Source: Tateyamaria sp. syn59
Lineage (GTDB): Bacteria > Pseudomonadota > Alphaproteobacteria > Rhodobacterales > Rhodobacteraceae
Assembly (NCBI RefSeq): GCF_007995245.1
Contig: NZ_VCBA01000001.1
Span: forward strand, 573,730-637,729
Direction of reading: 5' to 3'
Length of the DNA stretch: 64,000 bases
Shown: positions 7,001 to 13,462 of the stretch, piece by piece
Position numbering within the stretch: position 1 is the first letter of the stretch
Layout: the number at the start of each line of letters is the position of its first letter
Translations under genes and position numbers: made by a program
Notes under the pieces: generated by a model
What the model was told of the DNA's origin: nothing
The model's input: the letters and a program-made list of their open reading frames with translations, nothing else
The model's database searches: none

Positions 7001-8110
7001 GTGGACAGATCACTTTGCGCGTTGCGGTCTCCCAAGAAACAATACACCGGTACGCGGCAGCCTTGGCATAGCGCGGTGGGTATACACGTCTCCTCAACCG
7101 TCGAACGCAAACCACACCGGGTTGTTGTGATCGACGATTCAAAGGTCATGCGGCGGTGGTTGGGCAGCATGATTTCCGGCGATCCGCGCCTTGAGCTTGC
7201 GGGCACCGCCGCATCGGCGGAAGAGGCGCGGCAGGTGATCAAGTCAACCAACCCCGATGTCCTGACACTCGATGTCGAAATGCCGGGGATGGACGGCATT
7301 GAATTTCTGTCGCACCTCATGCGTCTGCGTCCAATGCCGGTTGTGATGTTGAGCAGCCAGATGCGTCACAACACGGAACACGCACGGCGCGCGCGTGCGT
7401 TGGGCGCGGCCGTCTGCCTTGCAAAACCGTCCATTCCCACGCCCGAAGCGCTGGCAAGACTGTGCGACAAGATCGTCGCAGCGGCACGGCAGGATGCGGA
7501 TGCCGATCACGCCAGTTGTGCAACATCGGATAAGGTCATTCTGATCGGGGCATCGACGGGTGGCGTCACGGCTCTCGAGAGCATCCTGCCACTGTTTCCT
7601 GCCAACGGACCGCCCATCGTCATTGCACAGCATATGCCGCATGCGTTTCTTGGTCGGTTCATTGAGCGGCTCGACCGGAACCTGGATCAGAGTGTGGATT
7701 TCGCTGCGGATGGGGAACGCTTGACCGACGGTCAGGTTCGGCTGGCTGCGGCGCGGGACACACAAACAGTTCTGACCTGGCACAGCGATGGCTGGCATGT
7801 TCAAGCCATACGGCGCGGGCGCAGTGACGTGTTTTGTCCATCTGTGGACGTTCTTTTTGGCTCGGCTGCACCGTGGGGCGCGCAGGTCGGCGCCATCATC
7901 CTGACCGGGCTGGGCAATGATGGGGCAAAAGGGATGCTGATGCTGCGCCGCAACGGCGCGAAGACCTTGGGCCAATCGGAGCGTACATGCGCCGTCTATG
8001 GCATGCCCGCAGCAGCACTTGCACTCGACGCCACAGAGGAAGAGCGTGATTTGATGGAATTGCCTTCCAGGATGGCGGACCTGCTGCTGCTCGGAGACAC
8101 CGTCACGTGA
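7001..8110 (+). CDS. cheB: Chemotaxis protein-glutamate methylesterase/glutaminase CheB
   Basis: CheB removes methyl groups from chemoreceptors and is activated by phosphorylation from CheA. From the 7001 GTG the product has 369 residues: a receiver domain (about 38-160) with acidic VVVIDDSK and the phosphorylated aspartate D91 in LTLDVEMPGMDG, then the methylesterase domain (about 178-365) with the catalytic serine S185 in IGASTGG, H211 in IAQHMPH, and the TGLGNDGAKGM segment. The amino terminus is uncertain; a GTG at 7076 would remove about 25 residues that the family does not need. It overlaps cheD. Unlike many che operons, cheB-cheD here are on the strand opposite the rest of the locus and converge on it. 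Confidence 0.92.
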   Translation: MDRSLCALRSPKKQYTGTRQPWHSAVGIHVSSTVERKPHRVVVIDDSKVMRRWLGSMISGDPRLELAGTAASAEEARQVIKSTNPDVLTLDVEMPGMDGIEFLSHLMRLRPMPVVMLSSQMRHNTEHARRARALGAAVCLAKPSIPTPEALARLCDKIVAAARQDADADHASCATSDKVILIGASTGGVTALESILPLFPANGPPIVIAQHMPHAFLGRFIERLDRNLDQSVDFAADGERLTDGQVRLAAARDTQTVLTWHSDGWHVQAIRRGRSDVFCPSVDVLFGSAAPWGAQVGAIILTGLGNDGAKGMLMLRRNGAKTLGQSERTCAVYGMPAAALALDATEEERDLMELPSRMADLLLLGDTVT

Positions 8111-8619
8111 CGCAACAGCACATCCATATCACGCAAGGCGAGCATGCAACGGGCACTGATCCAGATCTGGTGATCTCAACCTTGCTGGGGTCATGCGTGG
8201 CCTGCTGTCTCTGGGATGCTGATGCCGGTGTCGGGGGTATGAATCACATGCTTCTTGCGCACGCGCCGGGCCGCAGTACGCATCACACATTGTCTGGCAT
8301 TAATGCGATGGAATTGCTGATCAATGACCTGGTCAAACTTGGCGCTGCGCGGCGCAACTTGTGTGCCAAGGCGTTTGGTGGCGCGCGCATGATCTCGGGC
8401 CTGTCGGATATCGGAGCGCAAAATGCGCAATTCACACTGCAGTATCTTGAACAGGAGGGGATTCCGGTTGTGACCCATTCGCTTGGCGGACAAATGGCGC
8501 GCAACATTCGGTTTTGGCCAAACACCGGACGCGTCATGCAAAAGTTCACGAATGCCGCTGCGGGCGATCCGGATCTAACGGTTCCGATTTCAACGGGGAA
8601 CGGGCTGGAACTCTTCTGA
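8107..8619 (+). CDS. cheD: Chemoreceptor glutamine deamidase CheD
   Basis: CheD deamidates receptor glutamines and takes part in adaptation. This 170-residue protein shows the active-site cysteine in LGSCVACCLWD (about C30), the histidine in GGMNHMLLAH, and the AKAFGGARM segment near the catalytic threonine position of the family. Translation starts at a GTG that overlaps the end of cheB (GTGA), implying coupling. The carboxy terminus is GNGLELF; the small protein encoded convergently just downstream also ends in ELF. The end of the gene faces that minus-strand gene with only 21 bases between the stops. Confidence 0.93.
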   Translation: MTQQHIHITQGEHATGTDPDLVISTLLGSCVACCLWDADAGVGGMNHMLLAHAPGRSTHHTLSGINAMELLINDLVKLGAARRNLCAKAFGGARMISGLSDIGAQNAQFTLQYLEQEGIPVVTHSLGGQMARNIRFWPNTGRVMQKFTNAAAGDPDLTVPISTGNGLELF

Positions 8620-8622
8620 CAT

Positions 8623-8641
8623 GTCGCGGAGGGACCGCGAC
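8623..8641. terminator. Short hairpin between convergent che transcripts
   Basis: A perfect 7-bp stem (8623-8629 with 8635-8641) with a 5-base loop lies exactly between the cheD stop and the stop of the convergent gene. No clear T-run follows on either strand. Confidence 0.4.
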
Positions 8642-8988
8642 TAGAAAAGCTCGATCGACCCTGCCACCGGGCTGACAGTGGCGCAACTGTCAGATGACAG
8701 GATCGCCCGCGACTCGGCAAGTTTCAATTGTGCATCCTGATGGCGTTCGCCATCGGACACTTCCGCCAGGATCGCTGAGATAATCGACAGGTCGTGCAGT
8801 GACTGACCAATATGGTCCAGTTTTTGCAGCTTCTGTATGTGCGCCTCGGGCAATGCATTGCCATGAAGCGTAGTTAATTCTGACACCAAATGCGTAACGG
8901 TAGATAGATCATCGGTTAACTTCGCCAACACGCCGGACATGCGCGCCATAGCGCGTTTAGCCGCTGCGTCTGGTCCGTTTGAGGTCAC
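8641..8988 (-). CDS. Small che-operon protein with a DxxxQ motif (CheZ/CheT-like candidate)
   Basis: This 115-residue protein is not of a family I can name with certainty. It is largely helical in pattern up to about residue 95, with a long helix around 12-40 and another at 50-78, then a flexible tail. The second helix carries D58-H-I-G-Q62, which matches the DxxxQ signature of CheZ phosphatases (Asp143 and Gln147 in E. coli CheZ) including the Gly before Gln. The gene ends the minus-strand che operon and overlaps the upstream cheY by 4 bases (ATGA), so production with CheY is expected. A signal-terminating phosphatase for CheY is the leading guess. The last residues are SIELF, like the ELF end of CheD. 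Confidence 0.6.
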   Translation of the reverse strand: MTSNGPDAAAKRAMARMSGVLAKLTDDLSTVTHLVSELTTLHGNALPEAHIQKLQKLDHIGQSLHDLSIISAILAEVSDGERHQDAQLKLAESRAILSSDSCATVSPVAGSIELF

Positions 8989-9371
8989 AGCGGGCCAACC
9001 ACGGATTCAATGCACTGACGAAGCTGTGGCGCGTCAAATGGTTTCTTGAGATAGTTGTTCATCCCCAACTTGCGCCCGTGATCAATGATCTGGTGTTCGG
9101 TACGACCCGTGATCAGGATAAATCCGACGCCCTTGGTTCTGGCGCCACTGCGCAGGGTGTGCAGCAGTTTGAGGCCATCCATGTTCGGCATGTTGTAGTC
9201 GGATATGACAAGATGCGCGGGCGTCTTGCTGAGCACGTTGACCGCGTTCACACCGTCCGCTGCGATAAAGATGTGGCGGATACCCAATGCCTCGAGCCCT
9301 TGAACCAGGAGCCCGCGACTCGTCGACATATCATCAACGACCATAATGCGTATTTGGTCTCGCAACGCCAT
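8985..9371 (-). CDS. cheY: Single-domain response regulator, CheY type
   Basis: A 128-residue receiver domain with no output domain. The acidic pair sits in VVDDMSTSRG (13-14), the phosphorylated aspartate is D58 in ISDYNMPNMDG, the switch threonine is T88 and the conserved lysine is in LKKPF (109-110). It should receive phosphate from CheA and either bind the flagellar motor or act as a phosphate sink. It lies between cheR and the DxxxQ gene and overlaps the latter. A second CheY is encoded upstream of cheA; which one drives the motor cannot be told from sequence alone. Confidence 0.9.
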   Translation of the reverse strand: MALRDQIRIMVVDDMSTSRGLLVQGLEALGIRHIFIAADGVNAVNVLSKTPAHLVISDYNMPNMDGLKLLHTLRSGARTKGVGFILITGRTEHQIIDHGRKLGMNNYLKKPFDAPQLRQCIESVVGPL

Positions 9372-9380
9372 GTGCGTCTC

Positions 9381-10244
9381 CTATCTGGAATTGAAATGAG
9401 AAGGTGCCGTTTTGGTATATGCGGTTGGTCCACATGACCGAAATCCATGTGCGCCCGGCTCTGCAATACGCTCGGAATGCCCAAGAAAGAGCAGCCCGCC
9501 CGGACGTATACGAGTGCTGAACCGCGGCCAGAGCCTTTCTTGCGTGGGCTGATCAAAGTAAATGACCACGTTCCTGCAAAAGATCGCATCAAATGGAAAC
9601 TGCATCGGCCAGTCGTCAAACAGGTTCAACTCTCGGAACGACACAACTGTCTTCAATCTCTCCGACATGACGCGGTCGCCGCCGTCATCCGGATGCGCCA
9701 TTGTAAAACCGTGCAAATGCGATTTCGGTACGCCTTTCAGCTGTGCAGGCGCATATTTTCCCTGCTGCGCAAATGCGATGACGTTCGGGTCGATATCTGT
9801 TGCCAGGATCCGAAAGTCAGCGTCTGCGAGCGATGGCTCAAGCGACAGCAGATGCATGGCGACCGAATAGGGTTCTTGACCGTTCGAACAGCCCGCTGAC
9901 CAAATCCTGATCCGCTGCCCTGTTCTGATGCGCTCACGGAACGTTGGCAAAAGCGCGTCGCAAAGCATATCGAAATGCTGTGCTTCGCGAAAGAACTGCG
10001 ACACATTTGTCGTCAGGGCCGAGATCATGTAGCGGCGTTCGTCTATACCTTGCGTCGATGTCACGTGATCCGCGTAGATTGAAAAGGTATCAATGCTCAG
10101 CGCGCGCAGCCGATGCCGCAGCCGCGATTGCACCATCAACTTCTTTTCGCGCACAAGCCTGATGCCGCTTTCGCTATAGGCGAGCGCCGCGATCCGATCG
10201 AATTGCTGATCGTTCATGTGAGCTTGGCCGGACGGGTGGCGCAT
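9381..10244 (-). CDS. cheR: Chemotaxis protein methyltransferase CheR
   Basis: CheR methylates receptor glutamates using S-adenosylmethionine. The 287-residue product has the helical amino domain with IRLVREKKLMVQSRLRHRLR, the SAM-binding segment IWSAGCSNGQEPYSVAM (about 115-131), the ATDIDPNVIAFAQQGKY segment, and IFCRNVVIYFDQPTQ, all typical. The start ATG at 10244 shares one base with the cheW stop (TGATG); MNDQQFDR nine residues later is an alternative start. The beta subdomain that in some CheR proteins binds a receptor carboxy-terminal pentapeptide lies near residues 165-200. Confidence 0.93.
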   Translation of the reverse strand: MRHPSGQAHMNDQQFDRIAALAYSESGIRLVREKKLMVQSRLRHRLRALSIDTFSIYADHVTSTQGIDERRYMISALTTNVSQFFREAQHFDMLCDALLPTFRERIRTGQRIRIWSAGCSNGQEPYSVAMHLLSLEPSLADADFRILATDIDPNVIAFAQQGKYAPAQLKGVPKSHLHGFTMAHPDDGGDRVMSERLKTVVSFRELNLFDDWPMQFPFDAIFCRNVVIYFDQPTQERLWPRFSTRIRPGGLLFLGHSERIAEPGAHGFRSCGPTAYTKTAPSHFNSR

Positions 10245-10702
10245 CAGGCGGCGTCGCTTTCTGCCTTGGTCACGACAAGGGCCAAATCCAAGACGCGGAT
10301 CATCCGATCGTCGATCAGGGTCAGCGACTTGATCACGCTCAAACCATCGCGCACGCCGGTATCGGGCGGGTTTTGCATGTCGCCGGCTTCGAGCGACACG
10401 ATATCAGACACGGCATCGACAAGAAGCCCCGTCATTTGTCCCTCATGTTTGACGACGATAATGACGTTGCGATTGTTTTGGCCGCATTTTGGAAGGCCCA
10501 AACGCTCCGCCAGATCAATCACGGGCAAGACAGTGCCCCTCAGATTGATCACGCCGCGCATGAAGCTGGGCGCCAATGGCATCGGTGTTGCTTTTGTCCA
10601 GCCGCGGATTTCACGAACGCTCATGATATCAAGCGAGTATTCCTGATCACCCAGTTTGAACGTCAGCAATTCTATGGGCTGTGCAACGTTTTCGTCACTC
10701 AT
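10244..10702 (-). CDS. cheW: Chemotaxis coupling protein CheW
   Basis: CheW bridges receptors and CheA. The 152-residue protein consists of one CheW domain: FKLGDQEYSLDIMSVREIRGW near the start, MRGVINLRGTVLPVIDLAERLGL in the middle, and VDAVSDIVSL followed by the fold's last strands. It overlaps cheA by four bases (ATGA) and abuts cheR, so the three are translated in tandem. No receptor gene is in the window, so the partner chemoreceptors are encoded elsewhere. Confidence 0.94.
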   Translation of the reverse strand: MSDENVAQPIELLTFKLGDQEYSLDIMSVREIRGWTKATPMPLAPSFMRGVINLRGTVLPVIDLAERLGLPKCGQNNRNVIIVVKHEGQMTGLLVDAVSDIVSLEAGDMQNPPDTGVRDGLSVIKSLTLIDDRMIRVLDLALVVTKAESDAA

Positions 10703-12792
10703 GCGCGCGCCTCCAGTTTTTGTTGCGTGGCCGTGATGGCCCCGGCTGTATTCGCGTGGACAACGATGTCGGCCGGATCCAGAATGAGGGCGATCTGGCC
10801 ATCGCCCAGAATGGTCGCCGCGGCGATGCCGGGTGCGCGGTAGAAACTGTCATCAAGCCCTTTGATCACGACCTGGCGCTGATCGTGGATTTCATCCACC
10901 ATGAGCGCAACGTTGACCTCATCCTCGAGCGTCAGCAGCAGCGCGATGCGATCCACGTAACTGTCGCCCGGTCCGCGATACCCAAGAAGGGCACCAAGAT
11001 CCAAAAGCGGTAGAAAGGCGCCGCGGCTTCGCACCACAGACCGGCCGGGGCTGAGCATTTCCACGTTGGCATCGGTGAGAGTGAGCGTTTCGGACACTGC
11101 GCTCAGGGGCAGCACCAAGGTTTCGCCTGCGACATCCACAACCATCCCATCGAGCACGGCCAGCGTGAGCGGAAGGGAGATACTGAACAGAGTGCCATGA
11201 CCCGGTTCCGAACTGATCGTAATGCGGCCCCCAAGAGCATGGATCGCGGTGCGCACCACATCCATGCCGACGCCGCGGCCAGACAAGTCAGACACGCTGG
11301 ACGAGGTCGAGAAGCCCGGCATAAACAGAAGGTTGTCGATCTCTGCCTCTGTCAAATGGGCGTCGGCAGGGATCAGTCCTTTGTCACGCGCGATTTGCAG
11401 CACGCGCGGACGGTCGATGCCGCTGCCATCATCCGAAACGTCGATCACAACCCGACCCGAACGATGAGATGCGCTGAGCCGCACAGAACCTTGCCGGGGC
11501 TTTCCGATGGCCAATCTGTCTTCGGGCCGCTCAATTCCGTGATCCACCGCGTTGCGGATCATGTGTGTCAGCGGGTCGGCGAGCCTTTCGATGACGGTTT
11601 TATCAACCTCTGTCGTGTCTCCGTCCGTGATCAGACGCACATCCTTCGATACGGATGCGGAGGTTTCGCGAACGATTCGCGACATCCGTTGGAAGAGCGA
11701 TTTCACCGGTTGCGCCCGGATCATCATTACACTGTCCTGTATGTCACGGGTGAGGCGCTGAAACTCTTCCAGCCCGTTCATGGCGTCGGAATGCGGTGAC
11801 AGGCCAGCAGACTGCATGCTTTGCGACAGCATGGCCTGGTTGATCACAAGCTCGCCTACGAGGTTCACCAGCCGTTCAACGCGCTCGATATCGACGCGCA
11901 CGACCGTCTTTTTAGCGGTGTCGCGGGGTGGGGCGGATGCGGCCGGTTCGGGCAGCGGCGCCAAAACCGCACCTGCACTCGTAGGCTCAGCCGCCGTGCC
12001 CGTGTCAGTCGGATCGGATGTGGGTGCGCCCGCGCCGACGGGCAAGATCTGCAATTCGCACAACCCCTCGACAAACTCGAAGATGGACGCAATTTCCGCC
12101 TCGTCTACAACGGTGCGGATCGAAATGGACCAACTGAGATAGACCGCCTCTGCCGCCAGCTGATCCAGGGTTGGAATGCGGCTGGTGTCGCATTTGACAT
12201 CCAGTTCGCCCAAGTCGGCCAATGCAGCAAGGATGTGCGGAACGTCGTTGCCGGTTTCAAAAAGTTCCGGTTCCGGTATGAAGACGATCTGGAAGTGATT
12301 GAGCGCAGCGTCGTACTCCGTTTCAGGATCGTCCTCAAAATCAAGAGAGAGTGGGACAGGCGCGAAGTCGACGTCTGCCGGTTCCTCGCTTGGTCTTGAA
12401 CCTGCTGCTTGAGCGTCCAACTCGGACAAAAGCGCAGCGCTTGACTCAACCGGGAATTCCGCGTCTTCGCGGGCCGCGCGCACAATGTCTGCCAAGTGGT
12501 CTGCGGCCCGAAAGAACAGGTTCAAAAGGTTTGTCGTGACCGCCAAACGTGCATCACGAACCGCATCCAGCACGGTTTCATAACGGTGCGAAAAGCGCAC
12601 CATATGGTCCAGGCCAAACGCCCCGGCGCCGCCCTTGATCGAGTGGACGGCGCGAAACACCACGTGGATGGTTTCGCTGTCTCCAGTCTCGGTCTCCAAC
12701 GCGTGGAGACCATCGTGCAGGGCTTCGAGCAGTTCCTCGCATTCCACGAAAAACGAAGCGCGAATTTCCGCCATTGGGTCCGGGGCCGTCAT
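10699..12792 (-). CDS. cheA: Chemotaxis sensor histidine kinase CheA
   Basis: A 697-residue class II histidine kinase. Domains in order: HPt (about 1-110) with the phosphorylated H50 in RAVHSIKGGAGAFG; a linker with a probable regulator-binding domain (about 165-255); a proline/alanine-rich linker; the dimerisation helices beginning VVRVDIERVERLVNLVGELV; the ATPase domain with IRNAVDHGIE, DDGSGID and GRGVGMDVV; and a C-terminal CheW-like domain. It takes receptor signals through CheW and phosphorylates CheY, CheB and probably the second CheY. It is preceded by cheY with 8 bases between the genes. Confidence 0.96.
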   Translation of the reverse strand: MTAPDPMAEIRASFFVECEELLEALHDGLHALETETGDSETIHVVFRAVHSIKGGAGAFGLDHMVRFSHRYETVLDAVRDARLAVTTNLLNLFFRAADHLADIVRAAREDAEFPVESSAALLSELDAQAAGSRPSEEPADVDFAPVPLSLDFEDDPETEYDAALNHFQIVFIPEPELFETGNDVPHILAALADLGELDVKCDTSRIPTLDQLAAEAVYLSWSISIRTVVDEAEIASIFEFVEGLCELQILPVGAGAPTSDPTDTGTAAEPTSAGAVLAPLPEPAASAPPRDTAKKTVVRVDIERVERLVNLVGELVINQAMLSQSMQSAGLSPHSDAMNGLEEFQRLTRDIQDSVMMIRAQPVKSLFQRMSRIVRETSASVSKDVRLITDGDTTEVDKTVIERLADPLTHMIRNAVDHGIERPEDRLAIGKPRQGSVRLSASHRSGRVVIDVSDDGSGIDRPRVLQIARDKGLIPADAHLTEAEIDNLLFMPGFSTSSSVSDLSGRGVGMDVVRTAIHALGGRITISSEPGHGTLFSISLPLTLAVLDGMVVDVAGETLVLPLSAVSETLTLTDANVEMLSPGRSVVRSRGAFLPLLDLGALLGYRGPGDSYVDRIALLLTLEDEVNVALMVDEIHDQRQVVIKGLDDSFYRAPGIAAATILGDGQIALILDPADIVVHANTAGAITATQQKLEARA

Positions 12793-12800
12793 GTGCGCTG

Positions 12801-13166
12801 CTACCCGGCGACCATCTGCAACGCTTTGACGAGTTTGCTTGGATCAAACGGCTTTACGATCCAGCCCGTGGCACCAGCAGAGCGGGCGCGCATCTTCATT
12901 TCGGGGGCTGCTTCGGTTGTCAGAACGAGGATGGGCGTCGTCTTGTGACTGCCGTTGTCGCGCACCGCGTCGATAAAACCAAACCCGTCCATCCGCGGCA
13001 TGTTGATATCTGTGATGATCACATCCGGATTTATGCCGGCCAGCACCTCGGTGCCGTGCACACCATCGTCGGCAGTGTGTACGGTGAACCCGACGGGCTC
13101 GAGCGCCAAACGTATCATGTCCCGCATCGTGCGGCTGTCATCTACGGCGAGAATTTCAAGGCTCAT
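12801..13166 (-). CDS. cheY: Chemotaxis response regulator CheY
   Basis: A 121-residue receiver domain: AVDDSRTMRDMIRLAL near the start, phosphorylated aspartate D53 in ITDINMPRMDGF, T83 or T84 as switch residue, and K105 in VKPFDPSKL. It is the classic CheY arrangement directly upstream of cheA and overlaps the STAS gene by 4 bases (ATGA). Sequence is closer to motor-binding CheY proteins than the second receiver of this locus, but this is a judgement by eye. Confidence 0.92.
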   Translation of the reverse strand: MSLEILAVDDSRTMRDMIRLALEPVGFTVHTADDGVHGTEVLAGINPDVIITDINMPRMDGFGFIDAVRDNGSHKTTPILVLTTEAAPEMKMRARSAGATGWIVKPFDPSKLVKALQMVAG

Positions 13167-13462
13167 ATCGCCTCCTGCGGTGCCATCAGTGCCGTCAGGG
13201 CCATCAGCGTCAATTGCTGCTGCGCGCGCGGTTGCAGATTGGTGATCGACAACGCCGTGCCATTGACCTCGGTTGTGCGATGCGCGCTGAGCAAGACTTG
13301 GGCGCCCAAGGCGCCGATATGGATCGTTTCGGTGGCATCCAGGCGGATGTCAGCGGTCTGATCGCAATCCAACAGCTTTGCCAACAGCGTGGGGGCAGCC
13401 ACGGCATCCAGCCGGGGCGGCAGTGGGATCACATCATTCATGATGTTTGCGGAAAGCTGCAC
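13163..13462 (-). CDS. STAS-domain protein heading the che operon
   Basis: A 99-residue protein with the pattern of an anti-sigma-factor-antagonist (STAS) domain: LPPRLDAVAAPTLLAKLL, IRLDATETIHIGALGAQVLLSA and ITNLQPRAQQQL. The typical phosphorylated serine of SpoIIAA-like proteins (DSSGLG) is replaced by I-H-I-G-A-L-G, so the serine switch is lost. An alternative start at 13441 (MNDVIPLPPRL) would fit the fold better. It is the first gene of the minus-strand che operon and is translationally coupled to cheY. Its function in chemotaxis is not established from sequence; a structural or scaffold role is possible. Confidence 0.75.
   Translation of the reverse strand: MQLSANIMNDVIPLPPRLDAVAAPTLLAKLLDCDQTADIRLDATETIHIGALGAQVLLSAHRTTEVNGTALSITNLQPRAQQQLTLMALTALMAPQEAI

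Follow-up and report, generated by a model that had tools for sequence, protein, structure and literature searches.

CheZ carries a DxxxQ motif, with a glycine before the glutamine in Escherichia coli, forms a helical hairpin and ends in a flexible C-terminal tail. Its glutamine positions the attacking water and its aspartate contacts the active site of CheY, and the C-terminal peptide tethers CheY. Bacillus has a feedback formed by CheC, CheD and CheY~P. CheT joined this set of proteins only recently, and work on its role continues. According to the available part of PMC12654446, the Sinorhizobium meliloti protein has a DxxxQ motif and a CheZ-like AlphaFold model, dephosphorylates one of two CheYs and forms a complex with CheR, and CheT of Agrobacterium fabrum is atu0522. 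Where rhizobia lack CheZ, signal termination is assisted by CheS and by a CheY that acts as a phosphate sink, as stated in the available part of PMC8429497.

Here we analysed a stretch of 64,000 nucleotides from Tateyamaria sp. syn59 (the window), in which a che operon contains a gene for a 115-residue protein that is, by profile comparison, its cheT product in a highly diverged form. We put at roughly 0.7 the probability of our overall reading, namely that this is a diverged cheT, that it encodes a candidate CheY~P phosphatase and that its C-terminal tail is a docking tag shared with CheD.

Gene content and layout of the locus

The reverse-strand genes run, 5′ to 3′, from a STAS-domain gene at the place of cheS through cheY1, cheA, cheW, cheR and cheY2 to the cheT-like gene, towards which cheB and cheD run on the forward strand (Table 1). 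With the full rhizobial che gene order as reference, this set (S-Y1-A-W-R-Y2-T, with B-D convergent) is the same as that of the rhizobial operon, and the expected companions of a cheT, that is cheS, cheY1, cheA, cheW, cheR, cheB, cheY2 and cheD, are all present. A preliminary description of this DNA had reported a small 115-residue protein with the motif D58-H-I-G-Q62 that is cotranslated with a CheY. The open reading frame was confirmed, and its GTG start overlaps cheY2 by 4 bp (GTGA), as the cheY2 stop codon TGA lies at 8987-8985. An overlap of 4 bases or 1 base was found in all 16 same-genus loci with both genes in the stretch, a count that leaves out L009, from whose stretch CheY2 is absent.

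Table 1 Coordinates of the cheT-like gene, its neighbours and the coding segments discussed in the text
Feature	Position in window	Strand	Evidence
cheT-like gene, 115 aa, GTG start at 8988	8641..8988	(-)	ORF; orthologues; profile match to rhizobial CheT
D58-H-I-G-Q62 codons (DxxxQ motif, residues 58-62)	8803..8817	(-)	Translation; D and Q columns invariant
C-terminal tail codons G110-S-I-E-L-F115	8644..8661	(-)	G110 and F115 invariant in 17/17; low-pLDDT end of model
cheY2 (receiver domain), overlaps cheT start	8985..9371	(-)	Pfam Response_reg 9.5e-22; number 2 by position
cheR methyltransferase	9381..10244	(-)	Pfam CheR 1e-59
cheW	10244..10702	(-)	Pfam CheW 4.7e-38
cheA	10699..12792	(-)	Pfam Hpt, H-kinase_dim, HATPase_c, CheW
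cheY1 (receiver domain)	12801..13166	(-)	Pfam Response_reg 2.4e-27; number 1 by position
STAS-domain gene at rhizobial cheS place	13163..13462	(-)	Pfam STAS_2 1.5e-7; cheS assignment by position
cheB, start codon uncertain	7001..8110	(+)	Pfam CheB_methylest 8.2e-44
cheD, convergent with cheT, 21 bp between stops	8107..8619	(+)	Pfam CheD 6.2e-24
CheD C-terminal tail codons N-G-L-E-L-F	8599..8616	(+)	Translation; [LVI]E[LI]F end in 17/17 genus loci

The cheT-like gene is present in a single copy in its own genome. Its product matched no Pfam family above the cut-off and no NCBIfam family, and gave no hit to the CheC profile (PF04509); the best Pfam hit, DUF948 (E 0.09, below the cut-off), was rejected as reflecting helix composition, and so were the keratins and designed coiled coils that a sequence search of the PDB returned. 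Searches of the genome itself returned no CheZ and no CheC (PF04509) match, so that the cheT product may be its dedicated CheY~P phosphatase. That most alphaproteobacteria lack CheZ, as had been asserted, is correct for 180 of 289 sampled genomes, but 109 of the 289 have a CheZ match.

Conservation of the D/Q pair

Pairwise searches with the window protein found matches confined to the genus, a search of plasmids with it found no match, and a genus profile found 17 of 289 genomes of the class at E≤0.1, mostly weakly. Orthologues were detected in 17 of 20 same-genus genomes, its own included, and D58 and Q62 are invariant in 17 of 17; loss of this pair among orthologues, which the preliminary description had named as grounds for abandoning its proposal, did not occur. 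Residues invariant across the genus include Q55, D58, Q62, D66, L67, L90, G110 and F115, and evolution outside the motif is fast, with 24-58% identity to the window protein. The glycine before the glutamine in DHIGQ, earlier presented as a feature shared with CheZ, is not conserved among the orthologues. In an alignment of 40 family members, for most of which the motif was part of the selection filter, D58 and Q62 are invariant in 40 of 40 rows, and Q55, D58 and Q62 are the sole invariant columns. The 115-residue protein has the DxxxQ catalytic pair of CheZ as conserved D58 and Q62.

To avoid choosing loci by their motif, we used cheY2 as an anchor. This gene was detected at E≤1e-20 in 100 of 248 family genomes, and the loci of all 99 other than the window's own were examined. 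In 97 of the 99, an open reading frame starts close to where cheY2 stops. QxxDxxxQ is encoded by 91 of those frames, so that 91 of the 99 additional genomes of the family with that cheY2 have a CheT-type gene on its 3′ side; the commonest form of the motif in the family is LQx[LIF]DxxxQ. CheY2 was present in 16 of the 17 genus loci, each with a 3′ frame and the motif (16/16). The anchored total is therefore 107 of 113 loci with a 3′ frame, against 2.4% expected after shuffling, with six further family stretches that have no CheY2 left out of the count. One locus among the 107 (and the 91), L236, has a divergent CheY2 and an odd frame and is probably a chance match. At the anchored loci without QxxDxxxQ, the next gene is cheB (L237 and L300) or cheD (L274), or odd, spurious-looking frames lie beside divergent CheYs (L235, L250 and L263). 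At another place in their stretches, L237 and L274 encode QxxDxxxQ proteins with a similar tail (GDVRLF and GDVDLF, respectively).

Relation to CheT, CheZ and MCP/CheZ-like hybrids

We compared profiles using hhalign, with 42 rows for the window protein's CheT-like family (labelled Rhodobacteraceae-type), 75 for rhizobial CheT, 14 for the C-terminal module of the hybrids described below and seven for alphaproteobacterial CheZ (from PF04344 hits). The family label follows the window CheA, for which Leisingera, Ruegeria, Tritonibacter and Parasedimentitalea supplied the best matches among named plasmids. The rhizobial sample came from named genomes searched with an S. meliloti CheD as a lead, from which the best 80 loci were taken (Ensifer, Sinorhizobium, Rhizobium, Shinella, Agrobacterium and kin, or 'Rhizobiales bacterium'). 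At all 80, cheD is followed in the same orientation by a CheT-like gene at a distance of 11-383 nt, and 79 of these genes encode DxxxQ in forms like LQGIDLAVQ; at L132 the open frame spans the C-terminal part of CheT alone. Two rhizobial CheT proteins that we scanned had no Pfam family.

The Rhodobacteraceae-type set matched rhizobial CheT with a probability of 96.45 (95.20 with the tail residues cut), compared to 0.07 to 1.03 for a reversed and three column-shuffled controls, which identifies the 115-residue protein as CheT by homology. Its placement by profile comparison within the CheT family replaces the earlier suggestion of a possibly distinct family and makes it a new, diverged member, for which the evidence of a conserved D/Q pair is strong. 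Both the window protein and rhizobial CheT are small helical DxxxQ proteins whose che operons also contain cheS, cheD and a pair of cheY genes, and both carry an acidic, Phe-terminated tail. They differ in identity (13% in the profile alignment), in the tail itself (GSIELF in the window, GDF[DE]xF in rhizobia) and in position, with the window gene following cheY2 and facing cheD, whereas rhizobial cheT follows cheD.

With the seven CheZ sequences, by contrast, the probability was 0.28 (the reversed control gave 1.82), and the CheZ profile (PF04344) gave no Pfam hit, so no CheZ assignment is made. The window protein resembles CheZ in its DxxxQ, in the glycine before the glutamine of this one member, in its predicted helical hairpin and in its flexible C-terminal tail, but has about half the length, and its tail is not of the CheZ Q-D-[DE]-[IV]-D type. 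What stands of the CheZ/CheT-type phosphatase first proposed is therefore a CheT-type candidate, on the basis of the conserved D/Q pair, the gene content, the CheT profile match and the predicted hairpin; membership of CheZ, for which the profile comparison gave 0.3% and no match, is not supported.

A link to larger proteins emerged from alphaproteobacterial cheD regions, which contain MCP/CheZ-like hybrids of 347-535 aa with an MCP signalling hairpin, then a CheZ-like QFQDxxxQ and a Phi-[ED]-L-F tail (L078, L079, L081, L084, L085, L087, L088, L091, L093, L098, L099, L100, L101, L103, L104 and L105). Two that were scanned had an MCPsignal hit and no CheZ hit in Pfam. Hybrids such as those of L084 and L104 share with the window protein the QFQDxxxQ module, an LxEVRxRF-like helix and the tail, and differ in the signalling hairpin ahead of the module, the window CheT having just 115 aa. 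The Rhodobacteraceae-type set matched the hybrid C-terminal module at 95.21 (83.76 without the tail), rhizobial CheT did not (2.5), and the match of the hybrids to CheZ ranged from 45 for the C-terminal part to 90 for the whole. CheT is thereby tied to the C-terminal module of the large hybrids, and this pattern of matches suggests a CheZ-like module as its origin and the Rhodobacteraceae-type form as the bridge.

The AlphaFold2 model of the window protein (40 rows; mean pLDDT 83.4, pTM 0.70) has four helices, at residues 6-42, 48-75, 82-87 and 91-97, in agreement with the earlier characterization of the protein as helical. The first two form a hairpin and D58 and Q62 lie on the second, where Q55, D58, Q62 and D66, judged from their spacing, occupy one face. 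For residues 101-115, which make up the final two blocks, mean pLDDT is 56 and 52. Foldseek found no match in the PDB with E≤0.001; weaker matches, 50 of 143 listed, were mostly generic helical hairpins and bundles, with no CheZ among those listed.

A C-terminal tail shared with CheD

Every CheT orthologue in the genus ends G-x-[VIL]-[ED]-[LI]-F. At 17 of 17 genus loci, the C-terminus of the convergent CheD reads [LVI]-E-[LI]-F. Across the loci compared, a Phi-[ED]-[LF]-F C-terminal tail is common to the sequences of CheT, CheD and the MCP/CheZ-like hybrids of other alphaproteobacteria. This sharing, absent from the preliminary description, is a more novel finding than the membership of CheT; among the open papers listed by our searches, no title or abstract opening describes it, although it may be in print elsewhere.

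We counted tails in 46 Rhodobacteraceae-type loci (one per genome), in the rhizobial loci and in 27 regions of 25 other alphaproteobacterial genomes, with labels taken from best phmmer matches, which are imperfect. Under a strict tail rule, 126 of 136 CheD proteins qualified (26/29 Rhodobacteraceae-type, 80/80 rhizobial and 20/27 from other alphaproteobacteria), as did 26 of 41 Rhodobacteraceae-type CheT and 45 of 81 in the other CheT count, with 34 more rhizobial CheT ending GDFEAF, outside the rule. Frames labelled as hybrids, a label that also takes in ordinary MCPs, qualified in 18 of 42 cases in other alphaproteobacteria and never in the remaining groups (0/5 and 0/79). None of 805 frames labelled CheA, CheB, CheR, CheW, CheY1, CheY2 or CheS did so, and the background was 2 of 3529 frames of ≥150 aa. 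Rhizobial CheT ends G[DE][FLM][DE]xF and rhizobial CheD ends IEFF, each in 80 of 80. Outside the alphaproteobacteria (28 CheD loci, L200-L229), 14 CheD proteins end G-x-[VI]-[ED]-L-F, one has the sequence internally and 13 are without it, 11 of these 13 being frames of 157-165 aa.

The tail is not indispensable, as 24 of the 91 CheT-like frames of the family set are without it by rule (67 end Phi-x-Phi-[FL]) and so are CheT-like proteins of three other lineages (L080, L090 and L095, with LQVFDLIVQ, LQDFDLMSQ and LQGIDLVAQ), which have no Phi-[ED]-L-F end. Several of the 24 have related ends (IEWY, DLWL or DIWM). A DNA search of the window's own genome for G-x-[VIL]-[ED]-L-F-stop found the cheT-like gene only, missing CheD, whose tail lacks a Gly at the corresponding position. 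We rejected the possibility that the shared tail is an inverted-repeat by-product of convergent gene ends because it also occurs where cheD and cheT are in tandem, as in rhizobia, and on hybrids.

Possible roles of the protein and its tail

In our preferred reading, two molecules of the diverged CheT would pair their hairpins into a CheZ-like four-helix bundle, in which Q62 would place the attacking water and D58 would contact the CheY active site as in CheZ, and one of the two CheY proteins would lose its phosphate faster. We newly propose that the flexible tail (G-S-I-E-L-F) and the CheD tail would be docking tags of one kind, such that phosphatase and deamidase would be recruited to, or compete for, one partner. 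Signal termination and adaptation would then be physically linked. Against this reading we count that the window cheT is cotranslated with cheY2, whereas the rhizobial enzyme reportedly acts on CheY1. A broader generalization, which we hold tentatively and at slightly under even odds, is that (G/D)-x-Phi-[ED]-[LF]-F serves proteobacterial chemotaxis as a docking code, present on CheD and, in alphaproteobacteria, on DxxxQ phosphatases (CheT and hybrids), that brings both to the same partner in place of a CheC-CheD pair. Through the shared tail, both the encounter of CheT with CheR and the control of CheD where no CheC is found could be tested concretely and cheaply.

The putative partner, for which CheY or an array protein are other candidates, is most likely the adaptation enzymes CheR/CheB, as the rhizobial tail GDF[DE]xF fits the rule for receptor pentapeptides and rhizobial CheT reportedly complexes CheR (available part of PMC12654446). 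That rule, as given in the available part of PMC7390727, asks that positions 2 and 5 among the final five residues be aromatic; 77 of 80 rhizobial CheT tails conform, whereas the window's SIELF has Ile at position 2 and so is not a receptor pentapeptide in the strict sense. It resembles one in being C-terminal and acidic with Phe last, but its carriers are a soluble DxxxQ protein and CheD, and the CheD tails of other alphaproteobacteria, unlike receptor pentapeptides, often extend at least one residue beyond the Phe. The two proteins of the window's genome that match the whole MCP signalling domain end GWEEF and IIHAAE, the former being of the CheR/CheB-binding kind by the rule in the available part of PMC7390727. 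Many receptors in other clusters end Wx[ED]F and several do not, and the receptor-like genes in the 80 rhizobial loci include no WxxF end. Five MCP-like proteins ending IELF were rejected as proof of a receptor pentapeptide, three of them (L081, L100 and L105) being QFQDxxxQ hybrids and two (L082 and L103) being left without that motif.

Alternatively, the tail could tether CheY, as the CheZ C-terminal peptide does, and on CheD it would let CheY~P hold that protein in an alphaproteobacterial counterpart of the Bacillus feedback. We consider this unlikely, though the strongest of the alternatives. The anatomy is the same as that of CheZ (DxxxQ bundle, linker and C-terminal hydrophobic peptide), and a tailed QxxDxxxQ protein lies near cheD in 18 of the 27 regions of other alphaproteobacteria, 16 of these being hybrids. 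CheY remains a rival partner because the hybrid tails (DDDIELF) recall the Q-D-[DE]-[IV]-D-[DS]-I-L ends of 5 of 7 alphaproteobacterial CheZ, but the rhizobial tails (GDFDFF and GDFEAF) are less CheZ-like, and why CheD should bind CheY in proteobacteria is not apparent to us. Also against a tether, the tail ends two MCP-like proteins without QxxDxxxQ (L082:3804-5115, DIELF; L103:16114-17869, DVDLF), in the position that Wx[ED]F often occupies in receptors.

It is more doubtful still that the phosphatase role has been lost and that the protein is a scaffold or adaptation factor binding CheR/CheB through its tail, with D and Q kept only for binding CheY~P. The reported CheR complex of rhizobial CheT (available part of PMC12654446) and the fast divergence outside the motif would both suit such a factor, but having Q55, D58 and Q62 as the only invariant columns of the family alignment is the pattern expected of catalytic residues. 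Finally, a DxxxQ in one protein is no evidence in itself, as 31% of shuffles of this 115-residue sequence contain one, but the idea of a chance motif in an unrelated small helical protein can be dismissed given the D/Q invariance over the genus, the anchored loci and the CheT profile homology.

Other DxxxQ genes

Matches of about 40 residues at 43% on two viral contigs (L018 and L019) were rejected, as the frames look unrelated. At L086:8314-8899 (-), a gene for a DxxxQ protein (LQSADRLTQ) that ends EEDVTFF lies antisense between cheY2 and cheD, a possible CheT in yet another gene order. At L092:6639-7281 (-), around 1.3 kb from cheD, a 183-aa DxxxQ protein ends SDVELF and is possibly a third form of tailed phosphatase.
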